From assembly GCA_028285265.1 (NCBI GenBank), contig JANQPX010000020.1:310001-374000 (forward strand): DNA of 64,000 nucleotides. Direction: 5' to 3'. This stretch comes from Geminicoccaceae bacterium. Its GTDB lineage: Bacteria > Pseudomonadota > Alphaproteobacteria > Geminicoccales > Geminicoccaceae. The position numbers and the translations under genes were made by a program. Each line of letters begins with the position of its first letter. The first letter of the stretch is position 1. This document shows positions 25,948 to 41,040 of the stretch, piece by piece. The notes under the pieces were generated by a model. The model saw nothing but the letters and a program-made list of their open reading frames with translations, did not search any database and was not told the DNA's origin.

Positions 25948-27159
25948 CTATGCGCGATCAAGGCTATAGAGCGGGTCTTTTCCTTGACGTGGGACCAAGG
26001 GAGCGAGATCGACGGGATCGTGATCGTCGAATACCTCTAAGGTCTCATAGAGCGTGTTCCGCTGGAATGGCACACGGCCTGCGGCTCGGATCAGACGCAC
26101 CATCTCGAGCGGCGTTACTTCCTGCCCATGCCTGGCACCAGCAGCTCGACTGATGCTCTCATTCATGAGGGTACCGCCAAGATCGTTCGCGCCGCATTGC
26201 AACATCTTCACCGCCATTTCGGGACCAAGCTTCACCCAGGAGACCTGAATATTGTTGATCACGCCATGAAGCAGCAAACGTGCAACAGCATGCATTTTTA
26301 GACTTTCATCTCGGCTTGGGCCGGCGCGAACGTCATGCCTTCTCAGAAACAAGGGGCTATCCCAATGAACAAAGCCGAGCGGCACAAACTCGGTAAAGCC
26401 ACCCGTTTCGATTTGAATGCGCCTTATGAGATCAAGATGCGCCGCCCAATGCGTCGGCCCATCTATGTGGCCATACATAATCGTTGCTGTTGTCGGGACG
26501 CCGACTCGATGAGCCGTCTTAATGATCGTCACCCAGTCGTCGGCACTGAGTTTGTCCCGGGTAAGCTGCTGCCTGATTGTTGTGTCGAGGATCTCAGCCG
26601 CTGTGCCAGGCATGGAGCCCAATCCCACACTCTTCAAGTCCAAAATGTAGTCACGAAAGGGCATGCGCGCTTGCTTGGCACCGTACCAAATCTCAAAGGG
26701 AGAAAACGCGTGGATGTGGAGTTCGGGAACATTGGTCTTGATAGCGTCTACGATTTGGCGATAGCGCTGCCAATCGAGATCGGGGTTGAGGCCGCCTTGA
26801 ATGCAGACCTCCGTGCCTCCCCTGGCCAAAGCTTGTTTGGCCCGTTGGACTATATCTTCAAGCTCTAGAACTTCTGCTTCTACGTCATCTCGACGTTTCG
26901 CAAAGCCACAGAACTGGCATCCCATATAACAGACATTCGTGAAATTGATATTCCGGCAAATCACAAAACTCGCACGTCGCCCATGAACCTCTTTGCAAAG
27001 GGCATCAGCCGCACGAAAGAGGGCATGACGGTCGGCGCCTTCCGTCTCGAACAGACGGATCGCATCCTCCGTGGCGATCTCCCTCCCGAGGAAAGGGCGC
27101 TCCAAGATGCGGGCAATCTCGACGGATGCGTTTCCAAGGTCAGGATCGATTGGCTTCAA
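25948..27159 (-). CDS. cofH: FO synthase subunit 2 (5-amino-6-D-ribitylaminouracil:L-tyrosine 4-hydroxyphenyl transferase)
   Basis: Radical SAM CYMGCQFCGFAKR, GGTEVCIQGGLNPDL, NDLGGTLMNESISRAAGA; TTG start overlapping cofG stop. Confidence 0.93.
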   Translation of the reverse strand: MKPIDPDLGNASVEIARILERPFLGREIATEDAIRLFETEGADRHALFRAADALCKEVHGRRASFVICRNINFTNVCYMGCQFCGFAKRRDDVEAEVLELEDIVQRAKQALARGGTEVCIQGGLNPDLDWQRYRQIVDAIKTNVPELHIHAFSPFEIWYGAKQARMPFRDYILDLKSVGLGSMPGTAAEILDTTIRQQLTRDKLSADDWVTIIKTAHRVGVPTTATIMYGHIDGPTHWAAHLDLIRRIQIETGGFTEFVPLGFVHWDSPLFLRRHDVRAGPSRDESLKMHAVARLLLHGVINNIQVSWVKLGPEMAVKMLQCGANDLGGTLMNESISRAAGARHGQEVTPLEMVRLIRAAGRVPFQRNTLYETLEVFDDHDPVDLAPLVPRQGKDPLYSLDRA

Positions 27160-28322
27160 TTCGATGTCTCCCGTTGATCCCGGGCGAGACCATCGGACCG
27201 CGCCAGGCCTCGTAGCTTTCTCCCAATTGCGTCGTCTAAAAATTCACCTGCTTCCCTCAGAAAACGAGGATAGACCGTCAACCGTTCTTGCAGGACAAAC
27301 CCCCTTTCTTCCGTCGTTGCGCGCAGCCGACCGACTAGTGGCCATGCATGATCCGGGTTGATATGATCAATCGTAACTGGCGAGATTCCTCCCCAGTCGT
27401 TGATCCCGGCGTCGAGATAGGCATCGTAACGCCGTTCCAAATTGGGCGGTGCCTGCAGGCTGACGTCTGGTGGGAGGATCATTCGCGCCACCGCAAGTGT
27501 TCTCAGCATATCATCAAGCGTCGGCTCGGGCTGATTGGCCATGGCGATTCCGCGTTTGGCTTGGAAATTCTGAACGATAACTTCTTGAATGTGACCAAAT
27601 CGAAGATGCATATCACGGATGGCTTCGAGGCTCGCGACTCGTTCGTCAAACGTCTCGCCGATACCGATCAAGATTCCCGTTGTGAAGGGGACGCGCGCGC
27701 GTCCTGCGCGTTCGAGCGTCCGCAGGCGCTGAACCGGTACCTTGTCAGGGCAAGCGTAATGGGCCATGCCCTTGCGCATCAGTCGACGAGAGGTCGTTTC
27801 AAGCATCATGCCCATGGAGCCAGACACCGACTTCAGCCTCTCGATTTCGTCGTCATCAAGCGTGCCCGCATTCACATGTGGAATGAGGTCGGTTTCTTCT
27901 GTCACCAAGGCGCACATCTCGGCCAGATAGTCGGTCATGCGCGAAAAGCCGAGCGCATTCAGACGACGGCGCGCATCGACATATCGCCGCTCAGGTTTCT
28001 CACCGAGAGAGAAAAGAACTTCCTTGCAACCAAGACGCTCGCCAGTTCGCACGACGTGGCTCACCTCACCGGGCGTCATCAGTTTGGCATCCGAGGAACT
28101 TGGATGCTTGACGAAAACGCAATAGCCGCAGGTGTCCCGACACATATTCGTAAGCGGGACGAACACCTTTCGAGAATAGGTGATGATGTTGCCAAAGAAG
28201 CTGTCTCGAATTGAAGACGCTTCGGTCATGAGTTCGCCGAGGCCAGCGGACTGAAGGTCCGCTGCGGACAATCCAGAATGCCTCATTGAACCGCTATCCC
28301 GCCGATCGCAACGACGCCCCAC
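27156..28322 (-). CDS. cofG: FO synthase subunit 1 (7,8-didemethyl-8-hydroxy-5-deazariboflavin synthase)
   Basis: Radical SAM CRDTCGYCVF, KVFVPLTNMC, IQEVIVQNFQAKRG, NDWGGISPVTIDHINPDHAWP; start GTG 28322 or internal ATG 28286. Confidence 0.93.
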   Translation of the reverse strand: MGRRCDRRDSGSMRHSGLSAADLQSAGLGELMTEASSIRDSFFGNIITYSRKVFVPLTNMCRDTCGYCVFVKHPSSSDAKLMTPGEVSHVVRTGERLGCKEVLFSLGEKPERRYVDARRRLNALGFSRMTDYLAEMCALVTEETDLIPHVNAGTLDDDEIERLKSVSGSMGMMLETTSRRLMRKGMAHYACPDKVPVQRLRTLERAGRARVPFTTGILIGIGETFDERVASLEAIRDMHLRFGHIQEVIVQNFQAKRGIAMANQPEPTLDDMLRTLAVARMILPPDVSLQAPPNLERRYDAYLDAGINDWGGISPVTIDHINPDHAWPLVGRLRATTEERGFVLQERLTVYPRFLREAGEFLDDAIGRKLRGLARSDGLARDQRETSN

Positions 28323-29390
28323 CTAATGTCGAAACTCGGCGTAATGACGGGCGAGTACATCCCCACCGAAATCATTGGCGAGGTCGCGCCAGACCGCGTG
28401 AATGTGATTGGCACCGTTTTGCGTGTTGTCATATTCGATAAACAGACGTTTGCCCTGAATACGATAATAGTGTCCTTCGCCAGGCTCAGCGCTACCCGCC
28501 CAGGCGAAACGAATATGACGGAACTCCTTTTCAACCAAAGCCAATTGCTCGTCAGCGAGCGCGTCAGGCAGACGGTTTAGATAGTGGCCGATCAATTCTC
28601 TCAGGATATCGACATCACCATGCCCTAAGCTGTCTGTGCCAACGCCTTGGGGCGTTAGACTGAGCTGTAGGCCGTCCTCCATGGCATCGGTCATGCCTGC
28701 CGCCATGGCTTCCCGGCTACCTGCCGTGATGAGCTGACGATCACCTTCATGAAAAGAGGGACGATTGCCCGAGATTAGATCGCTTGGCGCTACTTGCGAG
28801 AGCAGAGCGTCGGATCGATTCTGGTCCTTGAGGTTCCTGAATAGCTCACGACCAAGATCTTCAATGGCAGCAAGTGGACGATTGAGATGGGGTCCAAGCA
28901 GCGGGCTAGCCGCAGGATTAGCACCGAAGAAACTTGGCGTCGACGCCATAACCTTGCCATCAATAATCAAATGATGCAGCGAAATATGATGCCCGCCAAA
29001 ACGCCAAGCCCAAGCCCCCTTGGGACCTGGTTCGCCAAAAATCGTCACATAGTAAAGAAGCGGATCACGCCGACGCTCGCGCTCTCTACCGCCGGGCCAA
29101 TTGTCAAAGTGGTCTAGGACATTTTCAAGGCCCATGATCGTGGCTGCGGTCACGTACCCTGCCCGAGAATAACCTGTCGCAACAAGCTTATGCACGAGCT
29201 GATGTTGGGTCGGCGTCATTCTGCCAAGATCAAGCCCGCCATGGTCTGTCGGGGTATAGAACCATAGCCGCCGTTCATCTTCGTCGGGAAAGTCATGGCA
29301 GGCGATTGCTCGCTGCTGCGCATCAAAGGCTTCGACAAGCCTAAGGGCGGCTTCTGTCATCTGCGTTGCAACACTGTCTTCGCTCATCAT
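28323..29390 (-). CDS. DUF3500-type protein of unknown function
   Basis: RRLWFYTPTDHGGLDLGRMTPTQHQLVHKLVATGYS, WAWRFGGHHISLHHLIIDGKVMASTPSFFGANPA, NHIHAVWRDLANDFGGDVLARHY. Confidence 0.8.
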   Translation of the reverse strand: MMSEDSVATQMTEAALRLVEAFDAQQRAIACHDFPDEDERRLWFYTPTDHGGLDLGRMTPTQHQLVHKLVATGYSRAGYVTAATIMGLENVLDHFDNWPGGRERERRRDPLLYYVTIFGEPGPKGAWAWRFGGHHISLHHLIIDGKVMASTPSFFGANPAASPLLGPHLNRPLAAIEDLGRELFRNLKDQNRSDALLSQVAPSDLISGNRPSFHEGDRQLITAGSREAMAAGMTDAMEDGLQLSLTPQGVGTDSLGHGDVDILRELIGHYLNRLPDALADEQLALVEKEFRHIRFAWAGSAEPGEGHYYRIQGKRLFIEYDNTQNGANHIHAVWRDLANDFGGDVLARHYAEFRH

Positions 29391-29411
29391 GTCACCATGC
29401 CATCTCGCTAT

Positions 29412-29834
29412 CTATTCGACCAGCCTTCCCCAGCTCATGACGTGGTTGATGGCGATGGCCACGACCGGTAGCGTCTCAATCTGCATCGTCAGAAGTTGCC
29501 GATAGCGCTGCCGGAGCCGTACCTGCGCCTGTTGATGTCTTGATCCGTCACTGATGATGGCCGCCTTCCCTTGAACCATCAGCCAACCGAGCTTCGTCCA
29601 ATCTTCGTCATAACGATCGACAACCAGACCAACCTTTGGATTCGATCGGATGTTGGCGAGCCGTTTGAGGTGAACGCCGCTTCGTTTGGGTTTTTGATCG
29701 ATTGTAAAATAGACAACGTCGTCGATAAGGGCGTAGCAGATCGGAACAACATGTGGCTGGCCATCGGAGTCAGCGGTCGCTAGACGTGCGACTCGCTCAG
29801 TCTCTAGAAAGCGACGCTGGTCATCAGTTAGCAT
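29412..29834 (-). CDS. PPOX-class F420-dependent-type oxidoreductase (TIGR03668-like)
   Basis: RVARLATADSDGQPHVVPICYALIDDVVYFTIDQKPKR split-barrel flavin/F420 fold motif; neighbours cofGH. Confidence 0.8.
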   Translation of the reverse strand: MLTDDQRRFLETERVARLATADSDGQPHVVPICYALIDDVVYFTIDQKPKRSGVHLKRLANIRSNPKVGLVVDRYDEDWTKLGWLMVQGKAAIISDGSRHQQAQVRLRQRYRQLLTMQIETLPVVAIAINHVMSWGRLVE

Positions 29835-29884
29835 GATCAAACTGCATGGCAGTCAATGGTCATCTCGCAATGGAGAAGCATATC

Positions 29885-30835
29885 ATGAAAGTTGGACTAA
29901 CACTGCCCATGCGCGGTCCACTTGCCAATCCGAAGGACATCAAGACACTGGTTGAACGAGCCGAATCACTCGGTTTCGATCATATCGGCGTCAATGATCA
30001 TGTCATTGTCCCCAAAAGCATCGATTCGCGATATCCCTATTCGACAACAGGCGCCTTTCCGGGATCTGCATCTGGCGAGTGCCTCGATCTTTTTGCGTTG
30101 CTCGCCTATGTCGCCGCGATCAGCACCAAACCTCGTCTTGTCACGGCCATTGCCGTGATTCCTCACCGGGGCGCAGTGCAGACTGCAAAGATCGTCTCGA
30201 CCATCGATGTACTTTCTGGCGGTCGAATCGATCTTGGTATTGGTGCCGGTTGGATGAAAGAAGAATTCGACGCTCTCAATATTCCGCCTTTCGAGGCACG
30301 CGGCCGCGTGACGGATGAGTATCTCGAGGCCTTCAAAGTGCTATGGACGGAAGAGGATCCAGCATTTGACGGCGAGTTTGTCCAATTTAAGAACATCAGC
30401 TTCTTGCCGCAACCGGTCCAAAAACCCCATCCGCCCATTCTCGTCGGCGGCGAGAGTCCGGCAGCACTCCGTCGAACTGTACGCTATGGCGACGTCTGGT
30501 TTCCGATCGCGAACAACCCACGGCACCCTCTCGACACAGTCGCGCGTTTCAAAGCGGGCATCGAGCGATTGCATAAGACTGCGGCAAAGCATGGCCGCGA
30601 TCCGGCGAGTATTGGCATAGCACTTTTCTCGAACTGGTATGACGAGACGAAAACCAGCAAAACCGACGAAGGCGAACGCCAGCTCCTGACAGGTAGTGCT
30701 ACCGAGATTGCTGACGATATCGAAGCGCTAGGGGAACTGGGTGTTACAGACCTGTTGCTTCAGTTCACCCGCGATACGATGGAGCGAACCTTGGACAGCA
30801 TTGACTTTTTCCATGATGAAATCCGACGCGATTAG
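29885..30835 (+). CDS. LLM-class F420-dependent oxidoreductase (TIGR03619-like)
   Basis: MKVGLTLPMRGPLANP, AESLGFDHIGVNDHVIVP, STIDVLSGGRIDLGIGAGWMKEEFDAL; ATG 29885 with GGAGAAG RBS. Confidence 0.9.
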   Translation: MKVGLTLPMRGPLANPKDIKTLVERAESLGFDHIGVNDHVIVPKSIDSRYPYSTTGAFPGSASGECLDLFALLAYVAAISTKPRLVTAIAVIPHRGAVQTAKIVSTIDVLSGGRIDLGIGAGWMKEEFDALNIPPFEARGRVTDEYLEAFKVLWTEEDPAFDGEFVQFKNISFLPQPVQKPHPPILVGGESPAALRRTVRYGDVWFPIANNPRHPLDTVARFKAGIERLHKTAAKHGRDPASIGIALFSNWYDETKTSKTDEGERQLLTGSATEIADDIEALGELGVTDLLLQFTRDTMERTLDSIDFFHDEIRRD

Positions 30836-30922: not shown

Positions 30923-32704
30923 TCACGCAGCACCACGCTGAGGCTGCATGTCAGCTTTGTCGATACCGGCAACGCGAACCGGCGTTTTCATAGCGTCTCG
31001 ACGGAAAGGCTCACCTAACTCCTGATTGAGGACAACCTCAAGGAAGGTGGTGACATTGCTATTCATTTGCTCGCTGATCGCGACTCGAAGCGCTTCAGTC
31101 AAGGCATCCATGCTGCGTACCTGCACGCCCTTGACACCGCAAGCATCAGCAACCTTGGCATACTCAACGCCCAGATTGAGTTCCGTGCCGACAAAATTGT
31201 CGTCGAACCAGAGCGTGGTGTTGCGCTTTTCCGCACCCCATTGGTAGTTGCGGAAAATCACCATGGTGATCGGTGGCCAGTCGTTGCGACCACAAGCGGT
31301 CATCTCGTTCATCGAAATACCGAAAGCGCCGTCGCCGGCAAAACCGACAACGGGTGTACGCGGACAGCCGATCTTTGCACCGAGAATCGCTGGAAAACCA
31401 TACCCGCAAGGGCCAAACATGCCCGGAGCAAGATATTTCCGCCCCTCCTCGAAAGTTGGGTAAGCATTGCCGATCGCGCAATTGTTGCCGATATCGGTCG
31501 AGATAATCGCTTCCTTCGGCAACGCTGCCTGAATGGCGCGCCACGCCATCCTTGGGCTCATACGCTCGGGTTCACGACTACGGGCGCGTTCGTTCCAATT
31601 TGTACCGGGATCATCGTCCTCATGATCCATCGACGAGAGCTGCTGTAGCCAACGGGACTTGGTGGTCGCAATTAACGCCTTGCGATCGTCGCGGCCTGTA
31701 TCGCCGGCATGATCGGCGAGTTGTTCCAGGATTTGTTCAGCGACTTGCTTAGCATCGCCCTGGATACCGACGGAAACCTTTTTGGTGAGGCCGATACGGT
31801 CCGCATTGATGTCGACCTGAATGATCTTGGCATCCTTCGGCCAGTAGTCGATGCCATAGCCGGGCAAGGTCGAAAAAGGATTGAGCCGTGTACCGAGTGC
31901 GAGCACGACGTCAGCTTTCGCGATCAACTCCATACCCGCCTTCGAGCCGTTGTAGCCAAGTGGGCCACAGGCAAGCGGGTGGGAGCCGGGGAAAGCATCG
32001 TTGTGTTGATAGTTGCAACAGACAGGGGCATCCAACCGCTCGGCCAGCGCGGCCGTCGCCGGTATTGCGCCGCCAATGACCACGCCTGCGCCGTTGAGGA
32101 TGACCGGAAATTTGGCATCCGAGAGCAGCTTCGCAGCTTCCTCGATGGCCGTTGCACCACCTCGCGGCGGCTCGATATTGACGCTCCTTGGCAAGTCAAC
32201 ATCGATAACCTGGGTCCAGTAGTCGCGCGGTACGTTGATCTGTGCCGGCGCTGATCCGCGCCAGGCCTTCTCGATCACTCGATTCAAGACTTCTGCAATC
32301 CGGGAGGGATCCTTCACCTCCTCTTGATAGCACACGATGTCTTCAAAGAGCGCCATCTGTGGCATCTCTTGGAAGCCGCCCTGTCCAATGGTCTTGTTGG
32401 CTGCCTGCGGTGTCACGAGGAGAAGAGGCGTGTGATTCCAATACGCCGTCTTGATCGGTGTAACAAAGTTAGTGATGCCCGGACCATTTTGCGCAATGGC
32501 CATACACATCTTGCCTGACGCGCGCGTATAGCCATCGGCGCTCATGCCGGCATTGCACTCGTGCGCGCAGTCCCAAAACTTGATGCCGGCAGCGGGGAAC
32601 AGGTCAGAAATCGGCATCATTGCTGATCCGATGATGCCAAAAGCATGTTCGATGCCGTGCATCTGAAGGACTTTGACGAAGGCCTCTTCAGTGGTCATTT
32701 TCAT
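30923..32704 (-). CDS. xsc: Sulfoacetaldehyde acetyltransferase
   Basis: ThDP-enzyme fold; KMTTEEAFVKVLQMHGIEHAFGIIGSAMMPISDLFPAAGI, FWDCAHECNAGMSADGYTRASGKMCMAIAQNGPGITNFVTPIKTAYWNHTP. Confidence 0.92.
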   Translation of the reverse strand: MKMTTEEAFVKVLQMHGIEHAFGIIGSAMMPISDLFPAAGIKFWDCAHECNAGMSADGYTRASGKMCMAIAQNGPGITNFVTPIKTAYWNHTPLLLVTPQAANKTIGQGGFQEMPQMALFEDIVCYQEEVKDPSRIAEVLNRVIEKAWRGSAPAQINVPRDYWTQVIDVDLPRSVNIEPPRGGATAIEEAAKLLSDAKFPVILNGAGVVIGGAIPATAALAERLDAPVCCNYQHNDAFPGSHPLACGPLGYNGSKAGMELIAKADVVLALGTRLNPFSTLPGYGIDYWPKDAKIIQVDINADRIGLTKKVSVGIQGDAKQVAEQILEQLADHAGDTGRDDRKALIATTKSRWLQQLSSMDHEDDDPGTNWNERARSREPERMSPRMAWRAIQAALPKEAIISTDIGNNCAIGNAYPTFEEGRKYLAPGMFGPCGYGFPAILGAKIGCPRTPVVGFAGDGAFGISMNEMTACGRNDWPPITMVIFRNYQWGAEKRNTTLWFDDNFVGTELNLGVEYAKVADACGVKGVQVRSMDALTEALRVAISEQMNSNVTTFLEVVLNQELGEPFRRDAMKTPVRVAGIDKADMQPQRGAA

Positions 32705-32884: not shown

Positions 32885-34291
32885 TCAGACACTGAAATAC
32901 AGTTGATACTCCATCGGATGCGGTACGGTTTCTTGCGCTTCAATCTCACTTCTCTTGAGTGCGATATAAGCGTCGATAACGCCATCCGAAAAAACCTCGC
33001 CTTGGGTGAGGAAGGAACGATCCGTGTCGAGGGCTACCAGTGCTTGCTCCAGCGATCGGCAAACCGTTGGCAATTCCTCAATTTCCTTGGCAGGCAGGTC
33101 GTAAAGATTACGATCCATCGGCTCTCCTGGGTCGATCCGTTTGGAAATGCCGTCGAGGCCCGCCATGAGGATGGCCGACGATGCAAGATAGGAGTTGGCT
33201 GAAGGATCAGGAAAGCGCAGTTCAACCCGTTTGTCTTCGGGCCTTGCAGCGAAAGGAAGACGGATTGCCGCAGAACGATTCAGCGCGGCATAGGCAAGAT
33301 GCCGCGGTGTCGTTTGGCCGGGAGCTAGTCGCCGGTAGCTGTTGGTCGTTGGGTTGGCAAACGCATTGAGCGCATGTGCATGTAGCAAAATACCGCCAAT
33401 AAAGTGCAGACATGCTTCGGAGAGATCAGCATAGCCACGGCCAGCGAAGATCGGTTTGTCGCCTTGCCAGAGGGCTTGTTGGATCTCAAAACCGGCACCG
33501 GGCTCAAAGGCCAATGGCTTCGGCATGAACGTCGCCGTTTTGCCATAGGAGTTCGCAACATTTTGAACGACATAGCGGTAAATCTGCACACCATCGGCCG
33601 CCGCAAGCATGGGCTGTGCTGCGAGATTAATCTCGCACTGACTTGGCGACGGATTGTGGTGCTGTTGTTGGGCTTCAAGGCCCATCGCCTGAAGCATGCT
33701 CACGATTTCGGCGCGGAGATCCGACAAATGATCAGCCGGTGCCACGGCATAGGGTGCCATGCTTGAGAACCGATGACCTGAATTGCCGGCATCGTAGCGC
33801 GCCCCACTGCCCGCCTTGCCTTCATCGGCTCGCACGTGCCAAGAGCCCTCGTTGACCTGAACCTCGCTTCTGACGTCTTCAAAAACGGAGAATGCCATCT
33901 CTGTTGCCGTCATCAGTTGATCGGCGATCCCGCTAGCGGCGAGGAAAGTCATGGCGTTGGCAGCGATGGAACGCGGACAGCGATCATAGGCAAGCCCGGA
34001 TCCGGGCTCGGCAACGTCAGCAATCAAGATGAGTGTCGGCTGCGCACTGAAGGGATCGATAACTGCCGTGGAAAGATCCGGCACCAACATCATGTCCGAT
34101 TCGCTGGCATCTCGCCATCCGGACACAGCAGAGCCGTCGAACATGATCCCCTCGTCAAGGATTCGTTGATCCACCCGAGCTGCGGCAAAACCAATATGCT
34201 GCCAACGTCCGCAAAGATCGGTAAAGCGGAAATCGATGGTCTGAATGCCTTCCTTTTCAATCCGCTCTAGGAGGGATGCTGTGTCCGCCAT
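32885..34291 (-). CDS. Glutamine synthetase-like protein with degenerate active site
   Basis: Full-length GSI alignment by eye (IMFDGSAVSGWRDASESDMMLVPD, QIYRYVVQNVANSYGKTATFMPKPL, NPTTNSYRRLAPG, RNLYDLPAKE, PHPMEYQLYFSV); several metal/catalytic residues replaced. Confidence 0.88.
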   Translation of the reverse strand: MADTASLLERIEKEGIQTIDFRFTDLCGRWQHIGFAAARVDQRILDEGIMFDGSAVSGWRDASESDMMLVPDLSTAVIDPFSAQPTLILIADVAEPGSGLAYDRCPRSIAANAMTFLAASGIADQLMTATEMAFSVFEDVRSEVQVNEGSWHVRADEGKAGSGARYDAGNSGHRFSSMAPYAVAPADHLSDLRAEIVSMLQAMGLEAQQQHHNPSPSQCEINLAAQPMLAAADGVQIYRYVVQNVANSYGKTATFMPKPLAFEPGAGFEIQQALWQGDKPIFAGRGYADLSEACLHFIGGILLHAHALNAFANPTTNSYRRLAPGQTTPRHLAYAALNRSAAIRLPFAARPEDKRVELRFPDPSANSYLASSAILMAGLDGISKRIDPGEPMDRNLYDLPAKEIEELPTVCRSLEQALVALDTDRSFLTQGEVFSDGVIDAYIALKRSEIEAQETVPHPMEYQLYFSV

Positions 34292-36858: not shown

Positions 36859-37072
36859 GGGTCAAAAGGTTCGACGAGAATGATCGACAACAACAATTAT
36901 GGCGCTCAAGAGCGCTGAATCCTGAACGCGTCATGCCTTTGTCGCATTTCGAAGAGAGCTAGTCGCCAAGGAAGAAGGGGCGATGGGCGGATGAACCTAA
37001 TTGAAGTAAGTAGTCATGTTTCATGCGGGCCATCATGCCGTACGAGCGGCGATAGAACGGGTAGGTGAGGCA

Positions 37073-37792
37073 ATGTCAGACCAAGACGATCTCGATCTGC
37101 GCTCCCTCGACGATGAGGAACTCGTCAAGCAGATGCAAGACGATCTCTATGATGGCTTAAAGGATGAGATCGAAGAAGGGGTCAACATTCTATTGGAGCG
37201 CGGTTGGGCTCCCTATGATGTGCTTACCCAGCCCTTAGTTGGCGGCATGACCATTGTCGGCATCGATTTCCGAGATGGCATTCTCTTTGTGCCCGAGGTC
37301 CTTCTTGCAGCCAACGCTATGAAAGGCGGCATGGCAATTCTCCGCCCTCTCCTTGCCGAGACCGGCGCTCCCCCCATGGGCAAAATGGTCATTGGCACGG
37401 TTAAAGGTGACATTCATGACATCGGCAAGAATCTCGTGTCGATGATGATGGAAGGTGCCGGCTTCGACGTCATCGACCTCGGCATCAACTGTGACGTCGA
37501 CAAATATCTTGAAGCGTTGGATGAGCACAAACCCGATATTCTCGGTATGTCTGCCCTCCTAACAACAACCATGCCTTATATGAAGGTCGTCATCGATACG
37601 ATGAAGGAAAAGAACATCAGAGATGACTATGTGGTGTTGGTTGGCGGTGCGCCGTTGAATGAGACGTTTGCCGAAGCCATCGGCGCTGACAGCTACTGCC
37701 GTGATGCGGCAGTCGCCGTTGAGACCGCCAAGGACTACATGTCCAGACGACACAATCAGCGCCCAGGTGGCATGTCCAGCACGGTCAACTGA
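37073..37792 (+). CDS. Corrinoid (B12-binding) protein of a methyltransferase system
   Basis: B12-binding GTVKGDIHDIGKNLVSMMM (DxHxxG), MSALLTTTMPYMK, VLVGGAPLNETFAEAIGAD; start ATG 37073. Confidence 0.93.
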   Translation: MSDQDDLDLRSLDDEELVKQMQDDLYDGLKDEIEEGVNILLERGWAPYDVLTQPLVGGMTIVGIDFRDGILFVPEVLLAANAMKGGMAILRPLLAETGAPPMGKMVIGTVKGDIHDIGKNLVSMMMEGAGFDVIDLGINCDVDKYLEALDEHKPDILGMSALLTTTMPYMKVVIDTMKEKNIRDDYVVLVGGAPLNETFAEAIGADSYCRDAAVAVETAKDYMSRRHNQRPGGMSSTVN

Positions 37793-37870
37793 CTCCCGGT
37801 GAGGGAGGCATTTGCCCAAGACATAACCTGCTACTGCGCGTGAGCCCCCCCTTGCTTGCGGAGTCCATTG

Positions 37871-38764
37871 ATGACGGACACTATTCTTAGCTCTGCGACG
37901 AAGGAAATCGCGATTGGCTTCGAACGCCCCTTCTGTGTAATTGGTGAGCGTATCAACCCGACCGGTCGAAAAAGACTTGCAGCCGAAATGGCAGGAGGCA
38001 ACTTTGAGACGGTCGAAACCGACACACGCGCTCAGGTGGCGGCAGGCGCGAACATGTTGGACGTCAATGCCGGGATCCCTCTTGCCGACGAACCAGCAAT
38101 CCTTGCTGAGACCATCAAGTTGGTCCAGTCGCTGACGGATGTACCACTCTCGATCGACAGCTCCATCGTCGCCGCATTGGAAGCCGGCCTCGCTGCCTAT
38201 CAGGGGCGACCGCTGGTGAATTCGGTGACAGGTGAAGAAGACCGACTTGAAGCGGTTTTGCCTCTAATCAAGAAATACGACTGCGCCGTTGTCGCGATCT
38301 CCAATGACGAAACCGGCATCTCTGAAGACCCTGACGTCCGATTTGATGTCGCCAAAAAGATTGTTGACCGTGCGCAGGATCACGGCATCAAGCCTGCTGA
38401 TGTCGTGGTTGATCCACTTGTCATGCCGATTGGCGCGCTCGCCACGGCGGGACGCGCTGCCTTTCACCTCATTCGTCGCCTTCGCGAGGAATTGAAGGTC
38501 AACACCACGTGTGGTGCCTCCAATGTCAGCTTTGGCTTGCCGAACCGCCACGGCATGAACGCGGCCTTCCTGTCCATGGCGATTGGCGCAGGCATGACGT
38601 CGGCGATCATGAACCCGCTCCACAGCGAAGAAATGACGGCGGTCAAGGGGTCTGATGTCTTGATGAACCATGACCCCGACTGCCGTACATGGTTGAGGAG
38701 CTTTCGCGAACCTACGGCCGACGGTGAAGGACGCCGCGAACGCCGCCGCCGCCGATCGGCTTGA
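37871..38764 (+). CDS. Methyltetrahydrofolate:corrinoid methyltransferase (pterin-binding domain)
   Basis: FCVIGERINPTGRKRLAAEM, GANMLDVNAGIPLADE, PLSIDSS, LVNSVTGEEDRL, TTCGASNVSFGLPNRHGMNAAFL. Confidence 0.92.
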   Translation: MTDTILSSATKEIAIGFERPFCVIGERINPTGRKRLAAEMAGGNFETVETDTRAQVAAGANMLDVNAGIPLADEPAILAETIKLVQSLTDVPLSIDSSIVAALEAGLAAYQGRPLVNSVTGEEDRLEAVLPLIKKYDCAVVAISNDETGISEDPDVRFDVAKKIVDRAQDHGIKPADVVVDPLVMPIGALATAGRAAFHLIRRLREELKVNTTCGASNVSFGLPNRHGMNAAFLSMAIGAGMTSAIMNPLHSEEMTAVKGSDVLMNHDPDCRTWLRSFREPTADGEGRRERRRRRSA

Positions 38765-39003
38765 GCGACAGGTAGGGGTAAGCTCTCCTGACGTGACGCG
38801 GGTTGGCCGGGCAGTGCGACGATAAAGGGAGCGGCGCCATGCTTCGACATCACGCAGACACGTGGACGTTCGACGCATGAACGAGCAGATTGCATGGCGT
38901 GCAGATTCGAGAAGCGTCCTTGGAGTGACGGCAGTGCTTCGGTGCCTGTATAGTCAATGAGACGTCACAAACTGGCCCTTCACCGACAAGGAGGTGCATC
39001 GCA

Positions 39004-41040
39004 TTGAGCGACCAGACCGCCCTTATTGTTTTCACGCCTTCCGGCAAACGCGGTCGATTTCCGATTGGCACACCCATCCTGCAAGCGGCGCAAAAGCTCG
39101 GCGTTGATCTCGATTCGATCTGCGGTGGGCGCGGTCTGTGCGGTCGTTGTCAAATCTCACTTGGCGAGGGAGAGTTCGCCAAGCACGGCATGACCTCAAC
39201 AGCAGAGCATGCCTCCCCTGCAGGTGAGGTGGAGGCTCGATTTGATCAGCGCAAAGGGCTCAAAAGCGGTCGACGACTTGGTTGCCAGGCCGCATTACAA
39301 GGCGACTTGGTCGTCGATGTGCCGCTCGAAAGCCAGGTTCACCGGCAGATCGTCCGCAAGCGGGCTGAAGTTCGGGATATCGAACTCGATCCGGTTGTAA
39401 AGCTCTATTATGTCGAGGTCGATGAACCCGACATGCATGCCCAAGCAGGCGATCTTAGGCGGTTAGAGCGGGCCCTGGAGGAACAGTGGCAATTGACAGG
39501 GCTCAGCGCCGACCTTCGCGTCATGCAATATCTGCAGCAGGTCTTACGTGAGGCAGAGTGGGGTGTGACTGCCGCTGTTCACGGCGATGAACGGATCATC
39601 GCGGTCTGGCCCGGTCTTAAACAGGACGTTTACGGCGTCGCCTTCGATGTCGGCTCGACCACAATAGCAGGGCATCTGATCGAACTTCGTACTGGCAAAG
39701 TCGTCGCATCAGCCGGCCTGATGAATCCGCAAATCCGCTTCGGTGAGGACCTGATGAGTCGGGTCTCCTATGTCATGATGAACCCAGGCGGTGACCAGGA
39801 GATGACCCTCGCGGTACGCGAGGCCATCACCGCGATGATTGGGCAGCTCGCAGCTGAAGCCCTGATCGATCCTAACGAGATTATGGATCTCACTTTTGTC
39901 GGTAATCCGGTGATGCACCATCTCCTGCTCGGAATCGACCCGACCGAGCTCGGAGGTGCTCCCTTCGCTCTCGCAACCGACGAACAGGTCTTTCTGTGGG
40001 CGAGCGAGCTGTCGATCAATGTGACCAACCCGTCGGCACGTGCCTATGTGCTCCCCTGCATTGCCGGTCACGTCGGTGCTGATGCGGCCGGCCTGATCTT
40101 GAGTGAGACGCCGCATTTGAATGATGAGATGACACTGATCGTCGATGTTGGCACGAACGCAGAAATCATCCTCGGCAACAAACATCGCCTTCTCGCAGCG
40201 TCATCGCCCACCGGCCCCGCGTTTGAGGGCGCGCAGCTGTCTTGCGGACAGCGTGCTGCACCTGGCGCAATCGAACGCGTGCGCATTGACCCCGAGACTC
40301 TCGAGCCTCGCTTCAAGCTCATTGGCGCCAGCACCTGGTCCGATGGAACAGGTGAAGACAGCGCCGATTTTGATGATGTGGCGCTGCAGTCGAGCGTTCC
40401 CGTCGTTGCCACAGGCATTTGTGGTTCCGGGATTATCGAGGCGATTGCAGAGATGTATCTCGCCGGCATCATCAAGCAGGACGGCATGATCGATGGCGAC
40501 AAAGCGGCGATCAGCTCACGTGTACAGAAGGATGGTCGGACCTTTACCTACCTGATTCAGGAAGGCGAGCCCGAGATCCGCATTACCCAGAACGATATCC
40601 GCGCGATTCAACTTGCTAAAGCAGCGCTCTATGCGGGCGCGCGATTGCTTATGGACCACTTTGGGATCGATCACATTGACCGAATCACGCTGGCTGGCGC
40701 CTTTGGAAGCCACATCGACGTCAAATATGCCATGATCCTCGGCCTAATTCCCGACTGTGAGCTGGAGAAAGTGACCTCGGCGGGCAACGCGGCAGGTACT
40801 GGCGCACGTATCGCGTTGCTCAATCGCAAGGCCAGGCGCGAAATCGAAGAGGTCGTCCAGCGTATCGAAAAGGTCGAAACCGCGGTTGAACCAAAGTTCC
40901 AGGAACACTTTGTCAAAGCTATGGCGATCCCTCATGCTGATGCCGCCTACGCTAACCTGAGAAAGGTGGTTCATCTTCCTGCGATGGACATGTCGACGGA
41001 CTCCAGGAGCCGCCGCGAACGCCGGCGAAAGCGTGCGTAG
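39004..41040 (+). CDS. ASKHA-domain ferredoxin-fused activator of corrinoid proteins (RamA/RACo-like, DUF4445)
   Basis: 2Fe-2S CGGRGLCGRC, ASKHA GVAFDVGSTTIAGHLIEL, LIVDVGTNAEIILGN, GITGSG-like ATGICGSGIIEAIAEM; TTG start with AAGGAGG. Confidence 0.92.
   Translation: MSDQTALIVFTPSGKRGRFPIGTPILQAAQKLGVDLDSICGGRGLCGRCQISLGEGEFAKHGMTSTAEHASPAGEVEARFDQRKGLKSGRRLGCQAALQGDLVVDVPLESQVHRQIVRKRAEVRDIELDPVVKLYYVEVDEPDMHAQAGDLRRLERALEEQWQLTGLSADLRVMQYLQQVLREAEWGVTAAVHGDERIIAVWPGLKQDVYGVAFDVGSTTIAGHLIELRTGKVVASAGLMNPQIRFGEDLMSRVSYVMMNPGGDQEMTLAVREAITAMIGQLAAEALIDPNEIMDLTFVGNPVMHHLLLGIDPTELGGAPFALATDEQVFLWASELSINVTNPSARAYVLPCIAGHVGADAAGLILSETPHLNDEMTLIVDVGTNAEIILGNKHRLLAASSPTGPAFEGAQLSCGQRAAPGAIERVRIDPETLEPRFKLIGASTWSDGTGEDSADFDDVALQSSVPVVATGICGSGIIEAIAEMYLAGIIKQDGMIDGDKAAISSRVQKDGRTFTYLIQEGEPEIRITQNDIRAIQLAKAALYAGARLLMDHFGIDHIDRITLAGAFGSHIDVKYAMILGLIPDCELEKVTSAGNAAGTGARIALLNRKARREIEEVVQRIEKVETAVEPKFQEHFVKAMAIPHADAAYANLRKVVHLPAMDMSTDSRSRRERRRKRA

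Follow-up and report, generated by a model that had tools for sequence, protein, structure and literature searches.

Why should a bacterium keep a glutamine synthetase (GS) that appears to have lost the means of making glutamine? This question is raised by a gene in a 64,000-nucleotide stretch of a Geminicoccaceae genome (hereafter the window), whose product the initial annotation had described, from an alignment by eye, as a full-length GS homologue lacking normal GS chemistry. Two readings were offered there, a regulatory pseudoenzyme or a ligase or binding protein with a remodelled site, possibly tied to the adjacent sulfoacetaldehyde acetyltransferase (Xsc). Having compared the gene with its orthologues and with working GlnA, we consider that its most likely role, inferred from these comparisons, is that of a non-catalytic GS subunit or regulator which would still be a target of GlnE.

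Results

A complete GSI fold with a broken metal site

The pseudo-GS gene is an uninterrupted open reading frame of 468 codons with an ATG start, lying on the minus strand (an orientation missing from the initial annotation) between an RND-type transporter gene and an xsc-like gene:

34291..32885, minus strand: pseudo-glutamine synthetase gene (P0001), 468 aa, from the open reading frame and its translation
30923..32704, minus strand: xsc-like (sulfoacetaldehyde acetyltransferase) gene, 180 bp downstream of pseudo-GS, not in conserved context

The complete fold expected of a GSI-beta enzyme, with N- and C-domains, is present. Both Pfam GS domains (Gln-synt_N and Gln-synt_C) were detected, the phmmer alignment to Salmonella/E. 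coli GlnA (2gls; E = 2e-142, about 45% identity) spans both ends of the protein, and AlphaFold2 returned a confident GS fold (mean pLDDT 90, pTM 0.92) in which only residues 169-173, immediately before the Y179 region, fall below a pLDDT of 50. The top Foldseek matches of this model are subunits of dodecameric GSI, with TM scores of about 0.88-0.93, and the original description of a full-length homologue is thus borne out. The NCBIfam equivalog for type I GS, TIGR00653, gives the protein 492.9 bits, above its cut-off of 429.15, whilst it lies far under the cut-offs of other GS-like models (GGputSyn, 184.2 bits vs 650; gln_synth_III, 206 vs 469.6). The source genome (8.5 Mb) also encodes a canonical GlnA, 46% identical to pseudo-GS and directly following glnB on contig C22 (G000:C22), as well as several more distant GS-like genes.

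The ligand roles of the active-site residues in GSI are well established, and positions are given here in E. coli GlnA numbering. The active site of GS is surrounded by the D50', E-flap, Y, N and Y* loops, and Y397 is the site of adenylylation (PMC11957540). In the window's protein the positions of greatest interest are as follows:

33893..33895, minus strand: E131 position (n1 metal ligand), lost; codon Ala133; Glu absent in 28/29 full-length orthologues
33668..33670, minus strand: E207 position (ATP/metal region), lost; codon Gln208; retained in 0/29
33653..33655, minus strand: E212 position (n1 metal/ammonium site), lost; codon Asn213; retained in 0/29
33500..33502, minus strand: N264 position (glutamate site), lost; codon Pro264; retained in 0/29
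33485..33487, minus strand: H269 position (n2 metal ligand), lost in the window's protein; codon Glu269; orthologues variable
33311..33313, minus strand: E327 position (catalytic flap), lost in the window's protein; codon Thr327; Asp/Glu in most orthologues
33101..33103, minus strand: adenylylation tyrosine, kept; codon Tyr397 in the loop MDRNLYDL; 29/29 full-length orthologues

A GSI-beta enzyme has intact n1 (E131, E212 and E220) and n2 (E129, H269 and E357) ligands, and here E131, E212 and H269 are replaced. The changes of E131 to Ala, H269 to Glu and E327 to Thr that had been read by eye all reappear in the computed alignment, as does the retention of E129, E220 and E357 and of the fold landmarks (D50, R339/R344/R359 and the adenylylation loop). 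The loss of E212 also stands, with Asn rather than His in its place once a one-residue gap is allowed for; misalignment as the source of the losses can be rejected, as only the identity of this residue was affected. Six further replacements had been missed (E207 to Q, N264 to P, H271 to Q, S53 to A, S273 to A and K352 to E), and R321, R355 and Y397 are among the residues kept. From this pattern, normal chemistry with glutamate, ammonium and ATP would not be expected of the protein.

Conservation across the Geminicoccaceae

We searched 32 genomes from 16 genera of the source family, scoring gene calls by composition; antisense open reading frames in these high-GC genomes mislead calling by length. 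A pseudo-GS orthologue was found in 30 of the 32 genomes and 15 of the 16 genera, the two genomes without one being 70% and 86% complete. Canonical GlnA accompanies it in 24 of the 30, and most of the remaining six genomes have fragmented or incomplete assemblies. Residues were counted in the 29 full-length orthologues, the 30th copy being on a contig that contains ambiguous bases.

The n1 metal site is broken in all 29, with E212 lost throughout and E131 lost in 28. Neither E207, F225 nor N264 is retained in any copy, and E131 (1/29), S53 (4/29) and H269 (9/29) survive only in part. At the other extreme, D50, D64, G265, R321, R339, R344, R359 and Y397 are kept in 29/29, and R355 and E357 in 28/29. 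What replaces the lost residues differs among genera: position 131 is filled by G, A, F, S, D or V, and position 269 by H, A, V, E, G, R, S, Y or F, whilst one divergent member (G003) keeps E131, E220, H269, H271 and E327. Checking the four substitutions across orthologues, as the initial annotation had proposed, gives a divided answer, in that loss at 131 and 212 is family-wide and Glu269 and Thr327 are not conserved; these two residues look like decay rather than a newly fixed site. Outside the family, 65 of 65 inspected alphaproteobacterial GlnA loci (20 in a first set, the 25 top class-wide matches and 20 spread down the list, including one two-copy genome) keep E129, E131, E212, E220, H269 and E357, although these represent part of the matches in a survey of 288 genomes and rare broken copies may exist elsewhere.

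The adenylylation loop, DRN(L/V/I)YDL, is nearly constant among the pseudo-GS proteins, conserving R394, N/H395, Y397, D398 and L399. GlnE, which adenylylates Y397, is present in 32/32 family genomes, and the PII gene (glnB) adjoins glnA. No sigma-54/NtrC-type promoter signal upstream of pseudo-GS or glnA was consistent when compared with shuffled sequences.

The gene is evidently maintained. Pairwise Nei-Gojobori dN/dS for pseudo-GS is 0.06-0.12 for the majority of close pairs, near the values that true GlnA gives in those genomes (0.070 vs 0.084 for G004/G046; 0.111 vs 0.118 for G000/G002, where dS is near saturation). In wider pairs it reaches 0.2-0.4, mostly exceeding the GlnA value, which suggests looser constraint, as would be expected once catalysis is no longer selected. 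With a GS fold, lost catalytic residues and conservation under selection, the protein has the attributes of a pseudoenzyme; sequencing error, a frameshift or a pseudogene can be rejected, given the open frames in 15 genera and the low dN/dS.

Constraint is unevenly distributed along the protein. Of the 152 sites that do not vary among canonical GlnA proteins, those kept most often on average lie around R339-R359 (mean retention 0.88) and in the C-terminal thong (0.87), followed by residues 366-440, which include Y397 (0.81), and by the N-domain, D50' loop included (0.78). Mean retention falls to 0.60 in the E-flap and 0.58 in the metal/N-loop region. Since 59 of the 152 sites are kept in all pseudo-GS proteins, retention of Y397 is by itself weak evidence. 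Active-site positions are lost more often than other invariant sites (10/22 vs 25/130, Fisher p = 0.012), a contrast kept modest by the retention of the arginines and of D50/D64.

Origin of the gene

In maximum-likelihood trees, which have a small outgroup sample and some long pseudo-GS branches, all pseudo-GS proteins form one clade (support 100/100), and a branch supported at 98/97 separates this clade, together with ordinary GlnA from other alphaproteobacteria, from the remaining sequences. The working GlnA of the Geminicoccaceae groups instead with Archangium and Arcanobacterium sequences, has the Synechocystis and Mycobacterium tuberculosis enzymes as its nearest solved structures, and looks xenologous. 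Recent duplication of the working GlnA within the family can be rejected, as forcing the two proteins into a single clade lowered lnL by 68 (AU p = 0.0025).

Gene order agrees with a native origin and does so independently of the trees. In Kiloniellales, Methylobacterium, Beijerinckiaceae and others (L029, L030, L035, L036, L038, L041) the order is glnB-glnA-parE, with intervening genes in some, whereas six Geminicoccaceae genomes (G014, G010, G020, G008, G019, G041) have glnB-GlnA-pseudoGS-parE, as does G007 with a 2.8 kb gap. Pseudo-GS thus occupies the place of the native glnA, with the working gene between it and glnB. The gap in the GlnA/pseudo-GS tandem is 116-188 bp, or 306 bp in G003. 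In G002, the closest relative of the source genome, pseudo-GS still adjoins parE (L028). In many genera, the source genus included, the gene is no longer at the glnA locus. As the clade groups and shares synteny with native glnA and the working GlnA looks foreign, we infer that the native gene became a pseudoenzyme after its displacement. The xenologous-looking GlnA (L002, L113; G000:C22) directly follows the glnB common to other alphaproteobacteria. Pseudo-GS has evolved fastest, with branches of about 0.6-1.0, in lineages that still have it close to glnA or in tandem with it (G003, G014, G006, G008/G019/G041, G009/G010/G020; L109-L118); its evolution is slower in those where it has relocated.

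Neighbouring genes in the window

A strong Xsc match is present in 14 of the 32 family genomes, compared with 30 for pseudo-GS, and G002 has no Xsc match at the cut-off used. Where the two genes share a contig (G001, G016) they are about 58-67 kb apart, and a true xsc was seen beside no examined orthologue except the window's; the weak matches (23-27%) close to certain orthologues belong to different members of the thiamine-diphosphate superfamily. The source genome carries a second xsc-like copy (G000:C34:102122-103891), 85% identical to that in the window. Two further groups of genes were recognised from their translations. Positions 25948-30835 hold CofG-/CofH-like radical SAM genes and a luciferase-like (LLM) oxidoreductase, pointing to biosynthesis and use of coenzyme F420 in the source alphaproteobacterium. 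Positions 37016-41040, on the plus strand, encode in a row a corrinoid protein, a pterin-binding methyltransferase-like protein and a large ferredoxin-domain corrinoid activase-like protein, which we judge to be a cluster for corrinoid-dependent methyl transfer.

Discussion

Loss of GS chemistry, the first half of the original claim of a regulatory pseudoenzyme, is strongly supported by the monophyletic, family-wide clade, the destroyed n1 site and the purifying selection; the word regulatory takes us further, into inference. Our leading explanation, which we hold tentatively and place a little short of even, is that a native alphaproteobacterial glnA became inactive after a xenologous GlnA took over and has been kept as a non-catalytic GS subunit within the GlnB/GlnE circuit. 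The native gene would have lost GS activity following the takeover, its product making no glutamine of its own. It may still assemble into GS-like rings, either alone or mixed with the working enzyme, and could enter the GlnB/GlnE circuit as a substrate or docking partner of GlnE, so that its amount and adenylylation state would tune the working GlnA. We propose mixed assembly with GlnA in particular as the two genes stand in tandem behind glnB in several genera. The fullest form of this explanation, in which the dead native subunit co-assembles with the foreign GlnA, is adenylylated by GlnE and controls nitrogen assimilation throughout the family, is possible but more doubtful. As read from sequence, the case combines an intact GSI fold that retains the D50' loop, C-terminal thong and adenylylation loop with a destroyed n1 site, placement with native glnA in both tree and gene order, the accompanying presence of GlnA, GlnE and PII, and purifying selection. 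Against a subunit role we count the position of the gene away from the glnA locus in many genera, the missing sigma-54 signal, the fast branches (0.6-1.0) of some lineages and the dN/dS of up to 0.2-0.4 in wider pairs.

The kept arginine cluster could instead mean that the protein binds a ligand. The main rival to a subunit that is adenylylated is accordingly a free-standing metabolite sensor, in which a homo-oligomeric dead GS would bind glutamine, glutamate, a nucleotide or phosphate through these arginines and signal to PII or a regulator, much as GS acts on TnrA/GlnR in Bacillus. We regard this as unlikely. In its favour, R321, R339, R344 and R359 (29/29), R355 and E357 (28/29) and G265 persist despite the loss of metal ligands, and pseudo-GS is unlinked from glnA in many genomes. 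The pocket around these arginines is, however, lost or variable (N264, H269, H271, Y179, S53), and no conserved partner gene was seen near pseudo-GS besides glnA and parE.

A role outside the GlnA oligomer is also conceivable, with the protein being adenylylated in GlnA's stead and so acting as a competitive sink or decoy for GlnE/GlnB that buffers modification. The conserved loop and the universal presence of GlnE fit this as well as they fit a subunit, but the N-domain and thong are conserved as well, which suggests that assembly is also important, and we think a decoy improbable. Slightly less probable again is that the site has been remodelled into that of a ligase or transferase acting on a new substrate. 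E129, E357 and often E220 remain, and G003 has the fuller set of ligands described above, but E212 and N264 are lost in all copies and E131 in 28/29, and had the family acquired a common new activity, one common new site would be expected, where the replacements in fact vary by genus. The ligase half of the original alternative is disfavoured for the same reason.

Lineage-specific active-site losses and fast branches in some clades might suggest a decaying relic without function; full-length frames in 29/30 copies (the exception having ambiguous bases), across 15 genera and with low dN/dS in close pairs, make this very improbable. Least probable of all is a role in sulfonate (taurine/sulfoacetaldehyde) metabolism. 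The suggested link to Xsc is not supported, since it draws on a same-strand neighbour at 180 bp in the window which is not conserved beside other orthologues, is far less widespread than pseudo-GS and has a second copy elsewhere in the source genome.

These findings suggest that a core enzyme of nitrogen metabolism gave way to another and that the former copy was retained in a non-catalytic, probably regulatory, role. An apparently foreign catalyst swapped in across an entire bacterial family, with the native dead copy kept under selection, offers a natural experiment on what GS does beyond catalysis, and concerns both a textbook enzyme and the textbook GlnE/PII circuit of covalent control. 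There is also a trap for annotation here, as the curated TIGR00653 model accepts pseudo-GS and would label it as a functional glutamate-ammonia ligase.

Comparison with known systems

Pseudo-GS resembles the GSI-beta GlnA of E. coli and Salmonella (TIGR00653) in its fold, D50' loop, arginine cluster, adenylylation tyrosine and C-terminal thong, and differs from it in lacking the n1 ligands E131 and E212 and in the replacement of E207, N264, H269, H271 and E327. Like PuuA, GMAS/GlnT and GlnA3/GlnA4, it is a GS paralogue retained next to a true GlnA. GS-like gamma-glutamyl ligases keep their metal ligands and change their substrate specificity; in pseudo-GS, unlike these PuuA/GMAS-type ligases, the metal site is lost and the scores against their models are far under cut-off. 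We found no description of a bacterial GS pseudoenzyme in a search of largely open-access literature, lengsin being the sole precedent met. Lengsin is a catalytically inactive, dodecameric class I GS remnant of the vertebrate eye lens (PMC2667176). Pseudo-GS is a pseudoenzyme of GSI for which lengsin is the nearest concept, each being a class I GS left over once another GS took the catalytic job, and pseudo-GS retaining assembly elements in its sequence. It differs in being bacterial, in descending from alphaproteobacterial GlnA (in a tree that held no lengsin sequence), in having been displaced by another GSI where lengsin was displaced by a GSII, and in keeping its adenylylation site alongside GlnE and GlnB.
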